From positions 1-64,000 of the forward strand of contig RZZS01000002.1 of NCBI GenBank assembly GCA_009929775.1: a DNA stretch of 64,000 nt. Direction: 5' to 3'. The DNA comes from Alphaproteobacteria bacterium. Lineage in GTDB: Bacteria > Pseudomonadota > Alphaproteobacteria > Micavibrionales > Micavibrionaceae. Positions 12,049 to 61,975 of this stretch are shown here, in pieces. The notes under the pieces were generated by a model, which was given only the letters and a program-made list of their open reading frames with translations, was not told the origin of the DNA and did no database searches. Every line of letters starts with the position of its first letter. Within the stretch, counting starts at the first letter, position 1. The translations under genes and the position numbers were made by a program.

Positions 12049-13463
12049 TGCACCCCGTCCTGTTTCCTGAAGCGCCTTGCGGCCAGATCGTACGCCCAGA
12101 GTAACGCGACCGACGCGCCGATGGCAAGGCAGGGAACGAGAATCAGGTTGTAACGCACGACGCCCACGCTCGTAAACGCATGGAAGCCCGCCATGTACCA
12201 TCCGGGCAGCGAATAGAGGATGAAGGATCCCCATCGCCGGCGCAGGGCGGCGAAGAAAACCGCCAGAAACAGCGGAATGGCGACCATGCCCCAATACTTG
12301 CTGACCCACACACCCCGCCAGAGCAGCGAAAAGGTGACGGCAATATGCTTGCCGGGATTGCCGAGGACTTCCTTTTCGATCAGATAACCGAGAAGCCTGT
12401 CCTCGTCGCCGGCTTCCTCAAGCATGTCGTCGCGGAAAGCGCGGTTGCCAAGCTGGTAATAACCCTCGGGATTGGCATAGTCCAGGCGCTCGAATCGCTC
12501 TGGCGGGAAAAGATCCCCGGCGAGCGAGTCTCCGAAATCGGGCAGGCCGTAGATGAATGAAGCGCGCCATTCGTCCCAGCTCATCCGGTTGAAGGAGGCG
12601 CGCTGGACGAAAATGTAGCCGGCATAGCCTTTCGATATGGCGAGGTCGCCAAATGTCACGAAGTTCCGGATCATCCACGGGCCCGCCGCCAGCCCGTAGC
12701 CGACGAGAAACAGAAGCGGAATTAAGGCGCGCCTGCGCCAGTCGAGAGTTCTCAAAAAAGCCATGGCGACAATCAGAGCGGGCAGAGCGCCATAAAGAAG
12801 ATAGGCAAAGCCGGGTCGTGTCAGGGCGGCGGCACCAAGAAGAACGCCTGCCAGCATCCAGAGGGCGGGGCTTTTGCGTTTCCAGCCCGCGGCAGCGGCA
12901 AGGCTTGCGCCCGTAAAAAACAGAAAGGTCAGGGTCTCGGTCATCATGATGCCGGCGAAATAAGCGTACGCTTCGGCGCCGAGCGCCAGGATCATGGCAA
13001 GCCATGCGGCGACCTTGCGTTCGGTGATGACAGTCGCCGACAGCCATACGAGAAAAGCGGTGATCGCCGCAAGAACCGCCTGCGTATAAACAAGGGCGGA
13101 AAACGGTCCGCAGGAATCCCAGCCCCGATCGAACAGCACGCAACGCGCCGATTCCGCAAACGGTTCGCTCACGACCATCAGCCCGGCGAGAAACGCCGGA
13201 AAGACGGGGGCAAAGAACATGCCCTTGCCATTTTCGTCCGTCATACCCCCGTCGGTAAATACGCCGTCCGTATAAAGTTCATAACCGACGCGAAGATACT
13301 CGTCCGAATCCTCGTCAAGCGTCGGCGGCGGGGCGAGGTGCAATTGCAGGACAACGACGCCAAGCGCGACCAGGAAAACAAAAATAGGGACAGTTACTTT
13401 TTCCTTCAAAAAGTAACTGTCCCGGGTTAATGTAAATTTTTTAGAATTAGGAAAAAGCCTCAT
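12045..13463 (-). CDS. ArnT/PMT-like membrane glycosyltransferase; N-terminus encoded by a transposon hairpin
   Basis: A 472-codon integral membrane protein with about ten hydrophobic segments and the acidic first loop (TLDEDSDEYLRVGYELY) that in GT-C enzymes holds catalytic Asp/Glu residues, followed by a second loop with KGMFFAPVFPAFLAG. This matches ArnT/PMT-family transferases that move a sugar from a polyprenyl phosphate onto a periplasmic acceptor. The GT2 and flippase-like genes overlap it downstream, making a three-gene cassette. Oddly, the first ~25 codons read straight through the REP hairpin at 13387-13423 and into the transposase start, so the native start was probably lost or shifted by the insertion. 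The ATG at 13463 overlaps the transposase ATG. Confidence 0.75.
   Translation of the reverse strand: MRLFPNSKKFTLTRDSYFLKEKVTVPIFVFLVALGVVVLQLHLAPPPTLDEDSDEYLRVGYELYTDGVFTDGGMTDENGKGMFFAPVFPAFLAGLMVVSEPFAESARCVLFDRGWDSCGPFSALVYTQAVLAAITAFLVWLSATVITERKVAAWLAMILALGAEAYAYFAGIMMTETLTFLFFTGASLAAAAGWKRKSPALWMLAGVLLGAAALTRPGFAYLLYGALPALIVAMAFLRTLDWRRRALIPLLFLVGYGLAAGPWMIRNFVTFGDLAISKGYAGYIFVQRASFNRMSWDEWRASFIYGLPDFGDSLAGDLFPPERFERLDYANPEGYYQLGNRAFRDDMLEEAGDEDRLLGYLIEKEVLGNPGKHIAVTFSLLWRGVWVSKYWGMVAIPLFLAVFFAALRRRWGSFILYSLPGWYMAGFHAFTSVGVVRYNLILVPCLAIGASVALLWAYDLAARRFRKQDGVQ
13387..13423. repeat. REP-like hairpin, left flank of the transposase
   Basis: A perfect 16-bp inverted repeat, GGGACAGTTACTTTTT, with a 5-base loop (CCTTC). 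It has the same stem as the hairpin at the other end of the transposase gene and is followed by GGTTAA, as is the right copy. It lies inside the annotated N-terminal codons of the PMT-like gene. Confidence 0.95.
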
Positions 13464-14094
13464 GCCCCGCTCGTCCAGACTGGTCGTTCCCGGTTATCCG
13501 CATCATGTCATACAAAGGGGAAACCGCCGTCAACAGACTTTTTTTAACGACAATGATTACCGGTATTATCTCGACCTTCTCGACGAATGGTGTCAGGCCG
13601 GAAAGACAAGCCTTTGGGCGTATTGCCTGATGCCGAATCACGTACATCTCGTCATGGTCCCTGAAACGGAGGACTCCTTGCGCCTGACCGTTTCCCAGAT
13701 TCACAGACGCTATACGATGATGGTGAACAAACGGGAAGGCTGGACGGGGCATCTGTGGCAGGCGCGTTTCGCCTCTTATGTGATGGACGAGGCATATACG
13801 CTGGCCGCTGTCCGGTATATCGAGATGAATCCGGTCGCGTCCGGAATCGTGGGGAATCCGGGGGATTACAGGTGGAGCAGCGCAGCGGCGCATCTCGGCC
13901 TGTATCATCCCGATGTCCGTCTTGCGATGTCGCCTTTAACGGACATGATTCCCTGCTGGGCGGAGTTTCTGGGACGGGAAGTCAAACCTGGAATCATTGA
14001 GGATATAAGGAAGAGCGAATCGTCCGGCCATCCGCTCGGCAGCAAAGCATTTGTCGATAATCTTGGGACAGTTACTTTTTCGTCGAAAAAGTAA
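13462..14094 (+). CDS. REP-associated tyrosine transposase (RAYT, Y1 family)
   Basis: A 210-residue IS200-like HUH endonuclease. The HUH metal site is the NHVHLV in YCLMPNHVHLVMV (about residues 58-63), with conserved HHVIQRGNRRQ at the N-terminus, HLWQARFAS and RYIEMNPVASG further on; the nucleophilic tyrosine is likely the one in AAVRYIEMNP. RAYTs cut and join REP hairpins as single strands. AGGA at 13449-13452 precedes the ATG at 13462, whose ATG overlaps the divergent PMT-like start (CATG). The coding sequence runs into the right hairpin, and its stop codon TAA lies within the second stem arm. The gene looks intact. Confidence 0.92.
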   Translation: MPRSSRLVVPGYPHHVIQRGNRRQQTFFNDNDYRYYLDLLDEWCQAGKTSLWAYCLMPNHVHLVMVPETEDSLRLTVSQIHRRYTMMVNKREGWTGHLWQARFASYVMDEAYTLAAVRYIEMNPVASGIVGNPGDYRWSSAAAHLGLYHPDVRLAMSPLTDMIPCWAEFLGREVKPGIIEDIRKSESSGHPLGSKAFVDNLGTVTFSSKK

Positions 14095-15557: not shown

Positions 15558-15935
15558 ATGAGCAACGCTGATTTTAACGAAGAGGCCGTCCGGCCGAAAT
15601 ACGCGTTTCGGAAGGACGCCGCGAACCCGAAATCGTTCTGGATTTTGCAGTGGAGCGATGCGGTTTCCGATTACGCTCCCTTCGGCGAATATGTGGTGGT
15701 CGATGCGGAAGAGAGCGAAAACCTGTCCGAAAAGCGCGTGGCGAATCTTGTTGGTGCGCTGAACGAAAAGCGGCGGCTTGAGGATCTCTCGGACGAGACG
15801 AAGTCGCGCACGCTTTACCACGTCACGCCCGAAAAAGACGCGGACGGACGCTCGAAAGTTGTCTTCCGCACCTTTACGGGCGAGGGTGTGTCGAAGGAAA
15901 ATGCACTTTTTACATTTGAGGGTGATGTAGAATGA
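15558..15935 (+). CDS. Acidic protein of unknown function
   Basis: A 125-residue soluble protein without signal peptide or membrane segment, rich in Glu/Asp (for example VVVDAEESENLSEKR) and with a Lys/Arg-containing middle (ALNEKRRLEDLSDETKSR). I recognise no domain. It is divergent from ahcY, and its stop overlaps the start of a 37-codon gene (ATGA), suggesting a two-gene transcript. Base composition resembles the neighbours, so it is unlikely to be noise. The ATG at 15558 is the only start that avoids running antisense through ahcY. Confidence 0.6.
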   Translation: MSNADFNEEAVRPKYAFRKDAANPKSFWILQWSDAVSDYAPFGEYVVVDAEESENLSEKRVANLVGALNEKRRLEDLSDETKSRTLYHVTPEKDADGRSKVVFRTFTGEGVSKENALFTFEGDVE

Positions 15936-16046: not shown

Positions 16047-16895
16047 TTAAGCCGGCATATCCCGGTGCACGATATGCACCGGCAGTTTCCTATGTTCGAG
16101 CCACTCGGCCAGACGTTCCGCGACATAAACCGACCGGTGTTTGCCGCCGGTGCAGCCGATGGCGATCGTGAGATAGGTTTTTCCCTCGTGGGCGTAGCGC
16201 GGCAGCGCGACCGCCAGCGTTTTTTTCAGATTTTCGATGAAAGGGGCAAAATTTTCGTCCTCTTCGATATAAGCCCCCACTTTCTTTTGTTTTCCGGTCA
16301 GTGGTTTCAGTTTCGGGTCCCAGTGCGGGTTGCGCAGGAAGCGTACGTCCATGACGATATCGGCCTCGCGCGGCAGGCCGTTGCGGTAACCGAAGGACAT
16401 GATCGTGGTCGTAAGCCGTCCTTCGGGCGAGCCGTAATACCCCTCCATCATGCGCCGCAGATCGTGGATTGACAGGCCGCTCGTGTCGATGACGAGATGC
16501 GCCCGGGCCTGGACCGGTTCGAGCAGCGTGTGCTCCAGCCGGATGCCGTCCTTGACGGGCTTGTCTTTGGCCATCGGGTGTTTGCGGCGCGTTTCGGTGA
16601 AGCGCTTTTGCAGCACGGCGTCGTCGCAGGTCATGAAAAGAAGCTCCGCGCCGCGGCGGTCGACCGTGTCGATGAGCGCGACAGGGCTGAAGCCGCGCGT
16701 GCGCGAGTCGATCCCGACGGCGATACGCCTTCCTTCCGTTTCCTCCTGATCGAGCAGCGGGTCGAGCAGCGGTATCGGAAAATTGTCGAGGACCTCGTAG
16801 CCGAAATCCTCGAGGCTTTTGAGTGCCGACGACATACCAGCCCCGGACAGGCCGGTGACGATGAGAAGTTTTTCCGGATGCTGGCTGGCCGACAT
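16047..16895 (-). CDS. rapZ: RapZ-family nucleotide-binding protein with altered Walker A
   Basis: A 282-residue protein of the RapZ (YvcJ) family. In enterobacteria RapZ is an RNA-binding adaptor that senses glucosamine-6-phosphate and directs sRNA decay; in alphaproteobacteria the gene usually sits with PTS genes between chvG and ahcY. Seen here are the Walker A position GLSGAGMSSALKSLEDFGYE (residue 21 is Met where Lys is expected), the family segment FPIPLLD, and the conserved C-terminal IGCTGGKHRSVYVAE. ATG at 16895 is chosen over one 17 codons upstream because AGAGGAGAAGAT precedes it. The missing Walker lysine argues against normal GTP/ATP hydrolysis. The stop is 1 bp from a convergent small gene. 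Confidence 0.9.
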   Translation of the reverse strand: MSASQHPEKLLIVTGLSGAGMSSALKSLEDFGYEVLDNFPIPLLDPLLDQEETEGRRIAVGIDSRTRGFSPVALIDTVDRRGAELLFMTCDDAVLQKRFTETRRKHPMAKDKPVKDGIRLEHTLLEPVQARAHLVIDTSGLSIHDLRRMMEGYYGSPEGRLTTTIMSFGYRNGLPREADIVMDVRFLRNPHWDPKLKPLTGKQKKVGAYIEEDENFAPFIENLKKTLAVALPRYAHEGKTYLTIAIGCTGGKHRSVYVAERLAEWLEHRKLPVHIVHRDMPA

Positions 16896-17116
16896 ATCTT
16901 CTCCTCTGCGGGACGTATTCGGGCGTAGGGAACCCGGACCAATCATAAGCCGTTTGCAAAGTGCGTCCAGTGGGTAAATCCGGTCGCAGGTTTATCCCCG
17001 TTATTATTGGTGGCGCAAGGCCCTTTATGTGGACCTTCGCGGTCGACCTTCCTACCCTGATCCTTGAAATTCCGTTGTTTCGAAATTGGCGCAGAGCCAA
17101 GAACAGGGGTACGGGC

Positions 17117-17857
17117 ATGAAGCGACCGGGTCTGACATCCGAGCTCGGCTATTTACGGAACTACGATCCCGAGCGTTACGCGCGACCGAACGTCCGCGTG
17201 GAAGTGGCTGTTTTCACCATCTTTGATGGGGCGTTGCATGTGCTGCTGCGCAAGCGACAAAGCCTCCCGTTTCTCGGGGCGTGGTCTTTGGCTGGTGGAT
17301 TTGTCGATATGGAGAGGGATTTTAACCTTGAGGGCGCCGCACGGCGTGCGGTTACGGAAAAATGCGGGCTTCGGCCGACCTATATCGAGCAGCTTTTCAC
17401 GGCGGGGGACGCGGGGCGGGATCCCCGGTACTGGACCGTCTCCTGTCTTTATATGGCGCTGAGCCCTGATTCGGTGCTTCCTCCTCCTGCCGCGAACGTA
17501 GCGCCGCTTCGCTGGATCCGTGTTCAGGACGGAGGAATCGACGGTGCGCTCGCCTTCGATCATGCGGAGATTCTGGCAAAAGCGTGCGGGAGGCTCAGGG
17601 AGCGTGCTCTCACGACGAGTTCGCCGCTCTTTCTTCTGCCGGAGGTCTTCTCGCTCGGCGACGCGCAAGTCGTTTACGAGATCGTTCTGGGTCAGCGGCT
17701 CGACGCGAAGTCGTTCCGGCGGCGTATGCTCTCGGCGAATGTCGTTGAAGAAACGGGCGCGTTTCGAGACAGCGGGCGCAGACCCGCGAAGCTGTACCGG
17801 CTCGTGAACCGCGAAAATCCGCATCTGTTCTTGCGCGCGATCGAGGGGGTCGGATGA
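17117..17857 (+). CDS. NrtR-like transcriptional regulator: degenerate Nudix domain plus winged helix
   Basis: A 246-residue protein with an N-terminal Nudix fold (about residues 25-150) and a C-terminal winged-helix region (about 165-240, FSLGDAQVVYEIVLGQ, then SANVVEETGAFRDSG and RPAKLYRL). This is the NrtR architecture, in which the Nudix part binds ADP-ribose and controls NAD or sugar metabolism genes. The Nudix box reads GGFVDMERDF...RAVTEKCGL: two of the acidic residues of the REx2EE core are replaced (Ala and Lys), so it is probably a ligand sensor, not a hydrolase. No NAD biosynthesis gene is adjacent. ATG at 17117 is preferred over an upstream in-frame start. Confidence 0.85.
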   Translation: MKRPGLTSELGYLRNYDPERYARPNVRVEVAVFTIFDGALHVLLRKRQSLPFLGAWSLAGGFVDMERDFNLEGAARRAVTEKCGLRPTYIEQLFTAGDAGRDPRYWTVSCLYMALSPDSVLPPPAANVAPLRWIRVQDGGIDGALAFDHAEILAKACGRLRERALTTSSPLFLLPEVFSLGDAQVVYEIVLGQRLDAKSFRRRMLSANVVEETGAFRDSGRRPAKLYRLVNRENPHLFLRAIEGVG

Positions 17858-17943
17858 ACGTCGGGATTCAAAGGGTTGCTGTGTCTCCGTTGTTCCCGTC
17901 TTTTCTGTTGACATAGTGCGTGCCGCATGGTCTTTGCCTGGTC

Positions 17944-18567
17944 ATGTCGCACGATTTTGCACAAAGTGAGAAATTCTTGCTCGTCGACCATGCCTCGACT
18001 CCGGAATTGCGGCACCTCGTTCATGCATTTCGGAAAGCGGAATTCATCGACCGGCAAGGGTACGAGGCTGACGACATCCGGGTCGAGGACGGGGGTGAGT
18101 ATGATAGCGCCGACCATGACGCTACAATGCACATTGTCAGTTTCCGCGAGGACCGGATTGTCGGATGTTTGCGTCTTGTACCAACGACACGTCGTTATCT
18201 TCTCGAGATGTTTCCGTCGCTCACGAGATCGGTGGATTACAGGAATGGCAACGTCTGGGACATAAGCCGTCTGGGGACGGGGGGTGAGGAAAGGCTCGGC
18301 GAAAAGATCCTCTGTGCGTGCTTTGAACTCGCGCAGAACCGAGGCATAGAGGCCCTTGTCACATTTACAACCGACGCACGAAGGGACGTTCTGCGCGGCA
18401 TCGGACTGGAGGTCGAACAACTCGGAGCGGAACAGGTCGTGTCTGGCCGCGACGACGAATTCTGGACGGCCGTCGGCTTGCGGATGAGGGTTAACGACCA
18501 TCAGCACAAAGCTCTTCAAACTTACATCCGGGATGATCGAACGTTCTGGCCCGAGCTCAGCCGATAA
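17944..18567 (+). CDS. LuxI-like autoinducer synthase family protein (orphan)
   Basis: A 207-residue acyltransferase-fold protein. Nearly the whole LuxI signature is present: Arg30, Phe34, Tyr40 (Trp in LuxI), the EYDSAD block (Glu52, Asp54, Asp57), RLVPTT with Arg77, Phe90, and WDISR with Asp106 (Glu in most LuxI) and Arg109. LuxI enzymes make acyl-homoserine lactones from SAM and acyl-ACP. The conservative changes W to Y and E to D leave activity open. No LuxR-type gene is in the window, so it is an orphan here. ATG at 17944 is used; GTG at 17920 is also possible, and neither has a good ribosome-binding site. A GNAT enzyme with another product is the main alternative. Confidence 0.7.
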   Translation: MSHDFAQSEKFLLVDHASTPELRHLVHAFRKAEFIDRQGYEADDIRVEDGGEYDSADHDATMHIVSFREDRIVGCLRLVPTTRRYLLEMFPSLTRSVDYRNGNVWDISRLGTGGEERLGEKILCACFELAQNRGIEALVTFTTDARRDVLRGIGLEVEQLGAEQVVSGRDDEFWTAVGLRMRVNDHQHKALQTYIRDDRTFWPELSR

Positions 18568-18589: not shown

Positions 18590-18651
18590 GGGGACACAAT
18601 AACTTTATGTGTCCCCACTGCAATGGGGACACATAAAGTTATTGTGTCCCC
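18590..18651. repeat. Paired REP-like palindromes (GGGGACACAATAA family)
   Basis: Two 27-base arms (18590-18616 and 18625-18651) are perfect inverted copies separated by 8 bases. Each arm is itself nearly palindromic, starting GGGGACACA and ending TGTGTCCCC. It lies between the LuxI-like gene and the end of chvG, which converge on it, so it could also act as a bidirectional terminator. Related single units lie at 45034-45060 and 61949-61975. Confidence 0.9.
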
Positions 18652-18672: not shown

Positions 18673-20430
18673 TCAGGCGGGGTGGAGGATGACGGTGAAG
18701 CGGGCGCCTTTGACGGCCTTGTCGTCGCCGATGATGTTGGAGGCGAAGATCTCGCCGCCGTGATTGTCAACGATCTGACGGGCGATGGAGAGACCGAGAC
18801 CGGAGTGGCTGCCGTATTTCTCGTGTTGCGGGCGTTCGGTGTAAAACCGGTCGAAGATCGAGCTCAGTTTGCTTTCCGGTATGCCGGGTCCCTGATCCTC
18901 GATGTGAACCGCGACGGTCAGCTTGTTTGGCTCGACCCGGATCGTCACAATGCCGCCGGGCGGCGAAAAGGACAGGGCGTTGGTGATCAGATTTCGGAAA
19001 ACTTGCGCAAGGCGGCTCTGGTTGCCCTTGACGAGGAACGACTCGTTTTCCGGAATGTCGAGAACGATATTTTGTCTCTCGAGGTCGACATTGGTTGCTT
19101 CCTTGCTGTTGTCGGCGCGCTCGAGCGGGGTACGCATTGCGTCCAGAAGCTGGAGCAATATGGCGCGCAGATCGACCGTCCCAAGTTCCTCGCGCGACAG
19201 CTCCGCGTCCAGCCGCGAGGCGTTGGAGATGTCGCTGATCAGTCGGTCGAGCCGCTGCACGTCATGAAGGACGATCTCCATCAGCCTGTCGCGCTTCCCG
19301 GGGTCCGTGAGGCGGGCTGCGGTCTCGACAGCGCTCCGCAGCGAGGTCAGCGGGTTCTTGATCTCGTGCGAGACGTCGGCGGCAAAGCGCTCGATCGTAT
19401 CCATCCGGCTCCAGAGCGCGTTGGTCATTTCCCGCAGGGCGGTTGACAGTTCGCCGATCTCGTCGCGGCGTTCGGAGAGGTCGGGAATCTGGGTGTCCCG
19501 GCCCTTGCCGAGTCGCACGGCTTCCGCCGCAACGGCAAGCTTTTTCAGCGGGCGGCCGATGACGCTGGAGAGGTACAGCGACAAAAGCACGGTAATCGAC
19601 AGGGTTCCGAAAAAGACGCGCAGGATATCCATCCGCACGCGGGCAATCGCGGCCTCGATGTTCGTGCCGTCGCGGGTCAGCAGGACGACGCCGAGAACCT
19701 GCTTGATCTTCTGCACCGGTGCGGCGGCCGAGAGGGTGATCGACCCGTCGGCGTTACGCCACGCGGAGGCGGCGATGTTGCCTTCCATGGCTGCCCGGGC
19801 GTCGGGATAGGCTTGTGCCTTGCCGGTCCGGTTTTGCGGCCAGTTCGGCAGGGTAATGTTTTGCGGCAGCAGCGCCGTGAAAACGCGCGTAATGTTCTCT
19901 GCCAGTTTTTCGGCCGTGAAACCGGTTTCGGGGGCGTCCAGCGGGATGATCTGGACGATTCCGCCCGGACCCATGAGCTGATGGGAATCGCCGATCAGAT
20001 TGCCCTTCGAGTCGAACAGCCTTGTGCGGGCCTGCGTCGTCTCCGAGAGACGCCGGACCATGCGGCGGGAAAGCTCGGGGATCAGGGCTTCGGTTTCGGA
20101 CGGGTCCTGAAAGATGATCGCCTCGGCCGACACGGCGGGGCGAACCGCGCCTTCCGCAATGGCTCCGGCGAAGAGCTGGGACTGTGCCTTCAGGGTCTCA
20201 AGCTCCGCCTGTACGAGGCTTTCCTTGTACTGACCGAGATAGAGGATCGAAAAGCCGAGAATGAGGATCGGTACGACATTGACGCCGAGTATCCGCGGCG
20301 CAAGACCGACCGGGCTGCGCCCCGCGCGGGTCCAGCGTTTCCTGAGGGCGGGCGACAACTCGTCCGTTCCGGCCTTTCGGTTCCGTTTGCGGAAAATGTT
20401 ACGCGTCCTTGTAGCGATACCCCACGCCAT
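18673..20430 (-). CDS. chvG: Sensor histidine kinase ChvG
   Basis: A 585-residue membrane kinase. After a basic N-terminus come a transmembrane segment ([19 protein letters not shown]), a periplasmic domain of about 250 residues, a second segment ([19 protein letters not shown]), HAMP, a DHp domain with the phospho-His in [19 protein letters not shown], and HATPase boxes ([33 protein letters not shown]). ChvG with ChvI senses acid and envelope stress in alphaproteobacteria. The start is uncertain: ATG at 20430 lies 30 bp inside chvI and gives a length close to known ChvG; no better codon is seen after the chvI stop. It is cotranscribed with chvI. Confidence 0.92.
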
Positions 20431-21097
20431 AGAGCGTTTCGATCTGGTTGAATTCCTCGTCGACGGCCTTGAACTTCTTCCGAACCCGCTTAATGTGCGA
20501 ATCGATCGTCCGGTCATCGACATAGATATTCTCACCATAGGCCATATCAATCAACTGATCCCGGTTCTTGACGTGTCCGGGACGCTGGGCGAGCGATTTG
20601 ACGAGCAGATATTCCGTTACAGTCAGGTTGACCGGCTCACCTTTCCAGGTGCACAGGTGCCGCGCGTCGTCAAGTTCGAGCTGGCCGCGGACGACCTTTT
20701 CACCGCTTTCGGGCTCGGACGGCTGGTTGCGGAGCGATTCGCGGCGCAGCAGGGCGCGGATGCGCTCGATCAGGAGGCGCTGTGAGAACGGTTTGGTGAT
20801 GTAGTCGTCGGCGCCCATGCGAAGACCCAGAACCTCATCGATCTCGTCGTCCTTGGAGGTCAGAAAGATGACCGGTACGGCGCTCTTTTCGCGCAGTTTG
20901 GTCAGAACCTCCATTCCGTCCATGCGCGGCATCTTGATGTCGAGAACGACCAGATCCGGCGTCCTTTCCATGATGCCGAGATAGCCTTCCTCGCCGTCAT
21001 TGTAGGTGCGCACGTCATAGCCTTCTGCGTCGAGCGCCATGGAGACGGAGGTGGTAATATTCTGGTCGTCGTCGACGAGAACGATTTGCTGGGTCAT
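20399..21097 (-). CDS. chvI: Response regulator ChvI (OmpR family)
   Basis: A 232-residue regulator with an N-terminal REC domain (acidic pocket VLVDDDQN, phosphoacceptor Asp in [12 protein letters not shown] near residue 52, Lys in YITKPFS near residue 103) and a C-terminal winged helix ([44 protein letters not shown]). This sequence layout is typical of ChvI, the essential or nearly essential partner of ChvG in many alphaproteobacteria. It overlaps chvG. The 87 bp upstream to folC carries its likely promoter. Confidence 0.95.
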
Positions 21098-34414: not shown

Positions 34415-34533
34415 CTTCAATATTAGCTAAAAGTTATTAAGAAGGAATTTAAAATTTATGAAAAGAGCTAGCCCCCCGGCGACATCCACTCCAGTATGGA
34501 TTCGATGGTTCGGGAAGTAAAAAGAAAAAACGC

Positions 34534-44890: not shown

Positions 44891-45168
44891 CGGGTTTCCG
44901 TGGAGAGAACCTCTCTCCAGCAATTTCAAACCGCGCCTTCCGCCCTGTATTCGTGTGAATTGGTGTTCATTCGTGGTTCGAATCGTTCCGGTTTCGAGAG
45001 GACGTTTTATCGGAGAGACGGCCGGGGGCAACTGGGGACACAATAACTTATTGTGTCCCCGGTGGTGCAATGCCGAAAGTCCCCTCACCACTGCGGCTAA
45101 CGCCTTGCTTCCCTGCGAGGCGGATCCTCGTTGCCTTTCCCGGGGAGTAACAACCCCTCTCGCCGACA
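44891..45168. other. Gene-free stretch before hsp20
   Basis: No coding sequence is seen. It contains a GTGAATTGGTGTTCATTCGTGG motif-like patch at about 44957-44978 and the REP-like palindrome at 45034-45060. The downstream end joins the hsp20 promoter. Confidence 0.5.
45034..45060. repeat. Single REP-like palindrome (GGGGACACAATAA family)
   Basis: A perfect palindrome: 13-base arms GGGGACACAATAA around one central C. It belongs to the family at 18590-18651 and 61949-61975. Confidence 0.9.
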
Positions 45169-61948: not shown

Positions 61949-61975
61949 GGGGACACAACAAGTTATTGTGTCCCC
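61949..61975. repeat. Single REP-like palindrome (GGGGACACAA family)
   Basis: A 27-base near-palindrome, GGGGACACAACAA around a central G, with one base departing from the 45034 unit. It lies between the third DotA-like gene and the end of mlaC. Confidence 0.85.

Follow-up and report, generated by a model that had tools for sequence, protein, structure and literature searches.

NrtR repressors normally sense NAD breakdown products, and ADP-ribose or NAD is the ligand known for the subfamily; their usual target is nadV, and linkage to genes of NAD metabolism is a usual, though not a strictly defining, feature. An impaired Nudix signature is a trait of the family, and DNA binding by the S. oneidensis member, SoNrtR, is suppressed by ADP-ribose (PMC4666351). 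MsNrtR was found experimentally to be an auto-repressor, which is released by ADP-ribose (PMC6800001). One NrtR-family regulator, BtAraR, has been turned to another pathway, where it senses arabinose and controls sugar genes (PMC4666351), and it provides a precedent for control outside NAD metabolism as proposed below. On the side of quorum sensing, M. aeruginosavorus ARL-13 is reported to have a single LuxI and two LuxRs, with no role known for any of them, and neither of the two phases examined showed expression of the LuxI (PMC3189940). Our literature search found no paper joining NrtR, quorum sensing and LuxI.

Here we describe an nrtR gene followed by a luxI-like gene in a 64-kb window (the whole stretch of DNA analysed, 64,000 nucleotides), which lies on contig C67 of a fragmented assembly of 2.99 Mb in 190 contigs. 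We infer that the genome belongs to an uncultured alphaproteobacterium of Micavibrionaceae type, a relative of Micavibrio; its GTDB family, as searched, comprised 104 genomes in 39 genera. Our best reading, held tentatively and at somewhat less than even confidence, is that an autoregulated, ADP-ribose/NAD-responsive NrtR also governs the luxI-like gene behind it, whose product would make a signal of the acyl-homoserine-lactone (AHL) type. The component families are already known, and what is new is the predicted NrtR operator in the promoter of nrtR-luxI. If true, our reading would give, as far as our searches show, the first case of an AHL synthase placed under a repressor that senses NAD status, and it would tie signalling to energy metabolism in a predatory lineage, for the quorum-sensing genes of which no role is known (PMC3189940). 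The unit is small and cheap to test, consisting of one protein, one 170-bp promoter and one enzyme.

The NrtR protein and its predicted operators

The nrtR gene (17117-17857, plus strand, from the ATG at 17117 to the end of the stop codon at 17857) encodes a protein of 246 amino acids. The original prediction had located this gene and the luxI-like ORF correctly, and its naming of the upstream gene as an NrtR-like regulator was borne out by Pfam, in which an N-terminal NUDIX domain (39.3 bits, cut-off 21.1) and a C-terminal NrtR_WHD winged helix (70.1 bits, cut-off 27) were both over their cut-offs. The best solved structure in the PDB was 3gz5, a 'MutT/nudix family protein' (2e-45), while the NCBIfam NtrR model gave 204.5 bits, under its cut-off of 400. 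By inspection the Nudix box, GGFVDMERDFNLEGAARRAVTEKCGL, is degenerate and lacks the REUXEE glutamates, and hence the protein is probably not a hydrolase. In its domain make-up and in its degenerate Nudix box it is like SoNrtR (3gz5/3gz6) and MsNrtR, and in sequence it is nearer to the NAD-type SoNrtR than to AraR (158 vs 97 bits). The original prediction had offered either a nucleotide-sugar or ADP-ribose as the signal; judged by the ligand of the subfamily, ADP-ribose or NAD is the likelier and the nucleotide-sugar lost ground. It may be noted, though, that the protein lies on a long branch in our tree. Of the 55 columns that show at least 90% conservation across 82 other NrtRs, it keeps 45. 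The ten conserved positions lost are more than in any of the 82, and therefore its ligand may have changed from that of the family.

The GTDB family yielded three strong homologues of this NrtR (41-47%) and one weak match, and all three strong homologues were placed in prs-nadV-nrtR operons. By contrast, no NAD gene adjoins the window nrtR, a search of the genome with the nadV of a family relative (run without a positive control) came back empty, and the next gene is the luxI-like one. Loci with NrtR and without nadV were also seen elsewhere, namely in two deltaproteobacterial MAGs and on one Rhizobium plasmid (L114, L119 and L226). The neighbours on the Rhizobium plasmid are annotated as an SPFH-domain protein and a sugar kinase, those in the MAGs look similar, and these loci are perhaps another NrtR regulon.

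For the operator we built a matrix from 38 distinct AT-flanked TGGC-N5-GCCA sites taken from 80 named NrtR loci (consensus TTAGTGGCTTAAAGCCACTAA). The motif was sought after a palindrome had already been noticed in the relatives and in the window; a narrower motif, TGGCAC-GTGCCA, proved too narrow and was widened to TGGC-N5-GCCA after the relatives were compared. The top site of the whole window was AAATTGGCGCAGAGCCAAGAA at 17083-17103 (17.5 bits), which ends 13 bp before the nrtR ATG. The second-best lies elsewhere, at 34420, and the third-best, TTGGTGGCGCAAGGCCCTTTA at 17007-17027 (11.3 bits), falls with the top site in the 170-bp divergent regulatory region (16947-17116) between rapZ on the minus strand and nrtR on the plus strand. 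Sites of at least 17.5 bits were absent from 6 Mb of simulated DNA and occurred once in 531 kb of other family loci, where sites of at least 11.3 bits occurred ten times. Most training sites score higher than the top site, at 22-34 bits, and exact cores with outer A/T occur at 12 places in the genome, not above the 17 of a control pattern. Among the family relatives, tandem sites of 25.2 and 23.9 bits stand 5' of prs in one prs-nadV-nrtR locus (L091, the same as L117 of the training set), a locus outside the training set (L090) has sites of 19.0 and 18.8 bits 5' of prs, and a third (L092) has a weaker site of 13.9 bits. The window NrtR thus resembles its family in having a palindromic operator, predicted and of the proteobacterial TGGC-N5-GCCA type, 5' of its own gene. 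Taken as a sequence match, this is strong evidence for a candidate NrtR operator at the nrtR promoter, in front of both genes, and NrtR probably also binds at 17007-17027.

The LuxI-like protein

The luxI-like gene (17944-18567, plus strand) encodes a divergent AHL synthase homologue of 207 amino acids. Its best start is the ATG at 17944, with a GTG at 17920 also possible, and the stop codon ends at 18567; the start codon has no clear ribosome-binding site. The LuxI-like identity held, with Autoind_synth (PF00765) at 40.2 bits against a cut-off of 24 and 3p2f, an 'AHL synthase', as the best solved structure in the PDB (9e-13), and no Pfam profile of another family was matched over its cut-off. 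The catalytic residues claimed for it, R30, F34, D54, D57, R77, F90 and R109, are all present, and six of the eight canonical LuxI residues (R, F, W, D, D, R, E, R) are retained. Both of the predicted substitutions are there as well. The W-to-Y change is Y40, and tyrosine is also found in 9 of 25 other LuxIs. The E-to-D change is D106, unique among the 26 sequences aligned, as the other 25 all have glutamate. Since an otherwise invariant residue is changed from Glu to Asp, AHL synthesis by this protein is uncertain; the conservative E106D may mean reduced or altered activity, or a changed acyl donor or acceptor. Thus, the protein is like the LuxI family (PF00765; 3p2f and LasI, 1ro5) in its profile match over cut-off and in most of the invariant catalytic residues, and unlike it in the E-to-D change at an invariant position, in having nrtR and no luxR adjacent, and in that no close relative was found.

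In the family, in 385 class genomes and on plasmids we obtained only weak matches, at most 37% identical even over part of the sequence, and a peptide-pattern search of GTDB gave no relative. The plasmid search returned 53 records, at about 25-32% identity in those listed, and none covers 80% of the query. A single-sequence AlphaFold2 model was unusable (mean pLDDT 40).

The chvG-rapZ junction and the origin of the pair

As the original prediction had it, the pair lies between rapZ (16047-16946, minus strand; NCBIfam PRK05416.1, 317.7 bits, cut-off 244) and the sensor kinase gene chvG (18673-20550, minus strand; best NCBIfam match HistKinChvGCaul, 420.9 bits, under the cut-off of 740), both being native neighbours, and chvG is followed by chvI (20399-21097). 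The true start of rapZ is probably downstream of 16946, because alignments to RapZ relatives begin at residues 5-28 of the ORF, in most cases at 20-26. We compared 35 rapZ-anchored loci from other genomes of the family. The order chvI-chvG-rapZ on one strand was seen in 34 of them, the exception (L084) lacking chvI-chvG, and in most a conserved small gene and/or ahcY follows 3' of rapZ. In the family chvG and rapZ usually overlap slightly or lie some tens of bases apart. In some relatives the gap between them holds ORFs, hydrophobic ones of about 195-220 amino acids in L060, L063, L064 and L066 and different ones in L073, L075, L076 and L082, and none of these gap ORFs is an nrtR or a luxI. 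As unrelated ORFs occupy the gap in several genomes, the junction tolerates insertions and has received them repeatedly.

In many alphaproteobacteria hprK is found next to chvG, and it was from this position that the pair had been suggested to have replaced hprK and PTS genes, a signalling unit taking the place of a metabolic one. HprK (PF07475), however, was over cut-off in none of the 104 family genomes while the control genomes were positive, chvG usually abuts rapZ there, with unrelated gap ORFs in some genomes, and the pair is oriented the opposite way. We therefore rejected the replacement at the level of the family: with hprK found in none of those genomes and chvG normally abutting rapZ, the pair replaced nothing, and the idea is now very improbable.

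The original prediction had named the failure of the two genes to occur together in relatives as an outcome that would count against it, and the pair was indeed found in the window genome alone (104 family genomes, 385 class genomes, plasmids, the GTDB peptide-pattern search and the best 80 NrtR loci in GTDB). As it is known from one fragmented assembly, conservation cannot support a linkage of nrtR with luxI. Among 24 genes tested, luxI had the lowest codon adaptation (0.589), and the next three were the gene of a RAYT transposase (0.613), nrtR (0.617) and a further ORF (0.617), which is consistent with gain of both genes from outside. The long branches of both proteins mean that their sources cannot be named. 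We regard nrtR-luxI as a real and intact pair, apparently gained in this one genome.

It may also be noted that an inverted pair of REP-like palindromes of 27 nt each, GGGGACACAATAACTTTATGTGTCCCC, lies at 18590-18651, between luxI and chvG. It is a genome-wide repeat, found also at 45034-45060 and 61949-61975 and at over 20 places in the genome, often as inverted pairs tens of bases apart, and a Y1 transposase (IS200-like/RAYT-type) encoded at 13462-14094 may mobilise it. A small ORF, 15558-15935 (plus strand), lies between rapZ and ahcY on the strand opposite to both and is conserved in the family at 33-46% identity.

Possible control of the luxI-like gene by NrtR

The nrtR and luxI-like genes are on the same strand with an 86-bp spacer (17858-17943), which has no intrinsic terminator, and the matrix scan gave no NrtR site directly 5' of the luxI-like gene. 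Because of these features, auto-repression of nrtR with luxI carried on its transcript would be the simplest arrangement. A two-gene cassette would have entered the chvG-rapZ junction, on the strand opposite to these two genes. NrtR would bind the promoter of its own gene, at 17083-17103 and probably at 17007-17027 too, until NAD turnover raised ADP-ribose (or NAD itself rose) and the ligand bound the Nudix domain; the ligand-bound protein would then leave the DNA, and both genes would be transcribed together. The LuxI-like enzyme would make an acyl-homoserine-lactone-type signal, and either the single LuxR, whose gene lies on a different contig, or other cells would read it. The claim of a regulator-synthase signalling unit thus stands in part, by virtue of the NrtR-type site predicted in the nrtR promoter, and falls as a substitute for hprK/PTS. 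The placing of this operator suggests that NAD status may control signal production. It is rather doubtful, in our view, that the synthase is directly under an NAD/ADP-ribose-sensing NrtR and not under a LuxR, so that its output would report NAD turnover and not cell density; in a presumed predator such a signal would perhaps be one of feeding state. The operator region could act on rapZ too, for which sigma-70-like boxes were seen at 16969-16942 (minus strand), since rapZ is divergent from nrtR and is separated from chvG by the insertion.

Two other readings were weighed. The genes could be chance neighbours, with NrtR an ordinary, self-repressing NAD regulator of NAD genes elsewhere in the genome and the luxI-like gene transcribed from a promoter of its own, free of NrtR. 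Against joint control, no NrtR site belongs to luxI itself, which may be served by a separate promoter, as the spacer contains a perfect TTGACA box (17908-17913), with no good -10. Also, when we surveyed the best 80 NrtR loci in GTDB with flanks of up to 5 kb, a LuxI-like ORF was found within 5 kb in none of the 80. A regulator acting elsewhere sits less easily with the remaining exact-core sites of the genome, which score at most 10.7 bits against 17.5 here, or with the failure to find nadV in a search without positive control, and the shared atypical codon use and single insertion point fit a joint arrival of the two genes. We consider this reading quite possible, but on balance doubtful. 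It could also be that the LuxI-like protein is no longer an AHL synthase, being in decay or engaged in acyl transfer of another kind or to another acceptor. The long branches of both proteins together with E106D leave altered function or decay possible, and the low identity to 12 other LuxIs (23-29%) and a weak best NCBIfam match to an exosortase-associated acyltransferase (24.3 bits, cut-off 112) point the same way. Autoind_synth is, however, the sole Pfam family over its cut-off, with FeeM and Acetyltransf_5 below theirs, and decay would have eroded a frame that is intact and residues that are kept (R30, E52, D54, D57, G74, R77, P80, W105 and R109). This reading we take to be unlikely, and control of the luxI-like gene by NrtR remains the one we tentatively prefer.

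The descriptions of the LuxI as an orphan and as having no LuxR partner were right for the neighbourhood, where no LuxR adjoins it, and wrong for the genome, which encodes one LuxR (PF03472), its only one, on contig C90 beside a second, canonical LuxI. Like ARL-13, this genome thus shows that the bacterial family carries LuxI/LuxR genes (PMC3189940; here C90). The window protein shares about 27% identity with the C90 LuxI and falls outside the clade of Micavibrio LuxI in the tree, in which branches are long; on these two grounds a recent duplication of the C90 gene was disfavoured. No lux-box-like palindrome was found 5' of the window luxI-like gene. At the C90 locus (L093, G000:C90, 6923-8745) the LuxR-LuxI pair is followed by an ORF of 107 amino acids and lies downstream of ORFs reading as phosphate-transport genes of pst type, and the palindrome AACGTGGCCACCTGGCCACTTT 5' of its luxI may be a lux-box.
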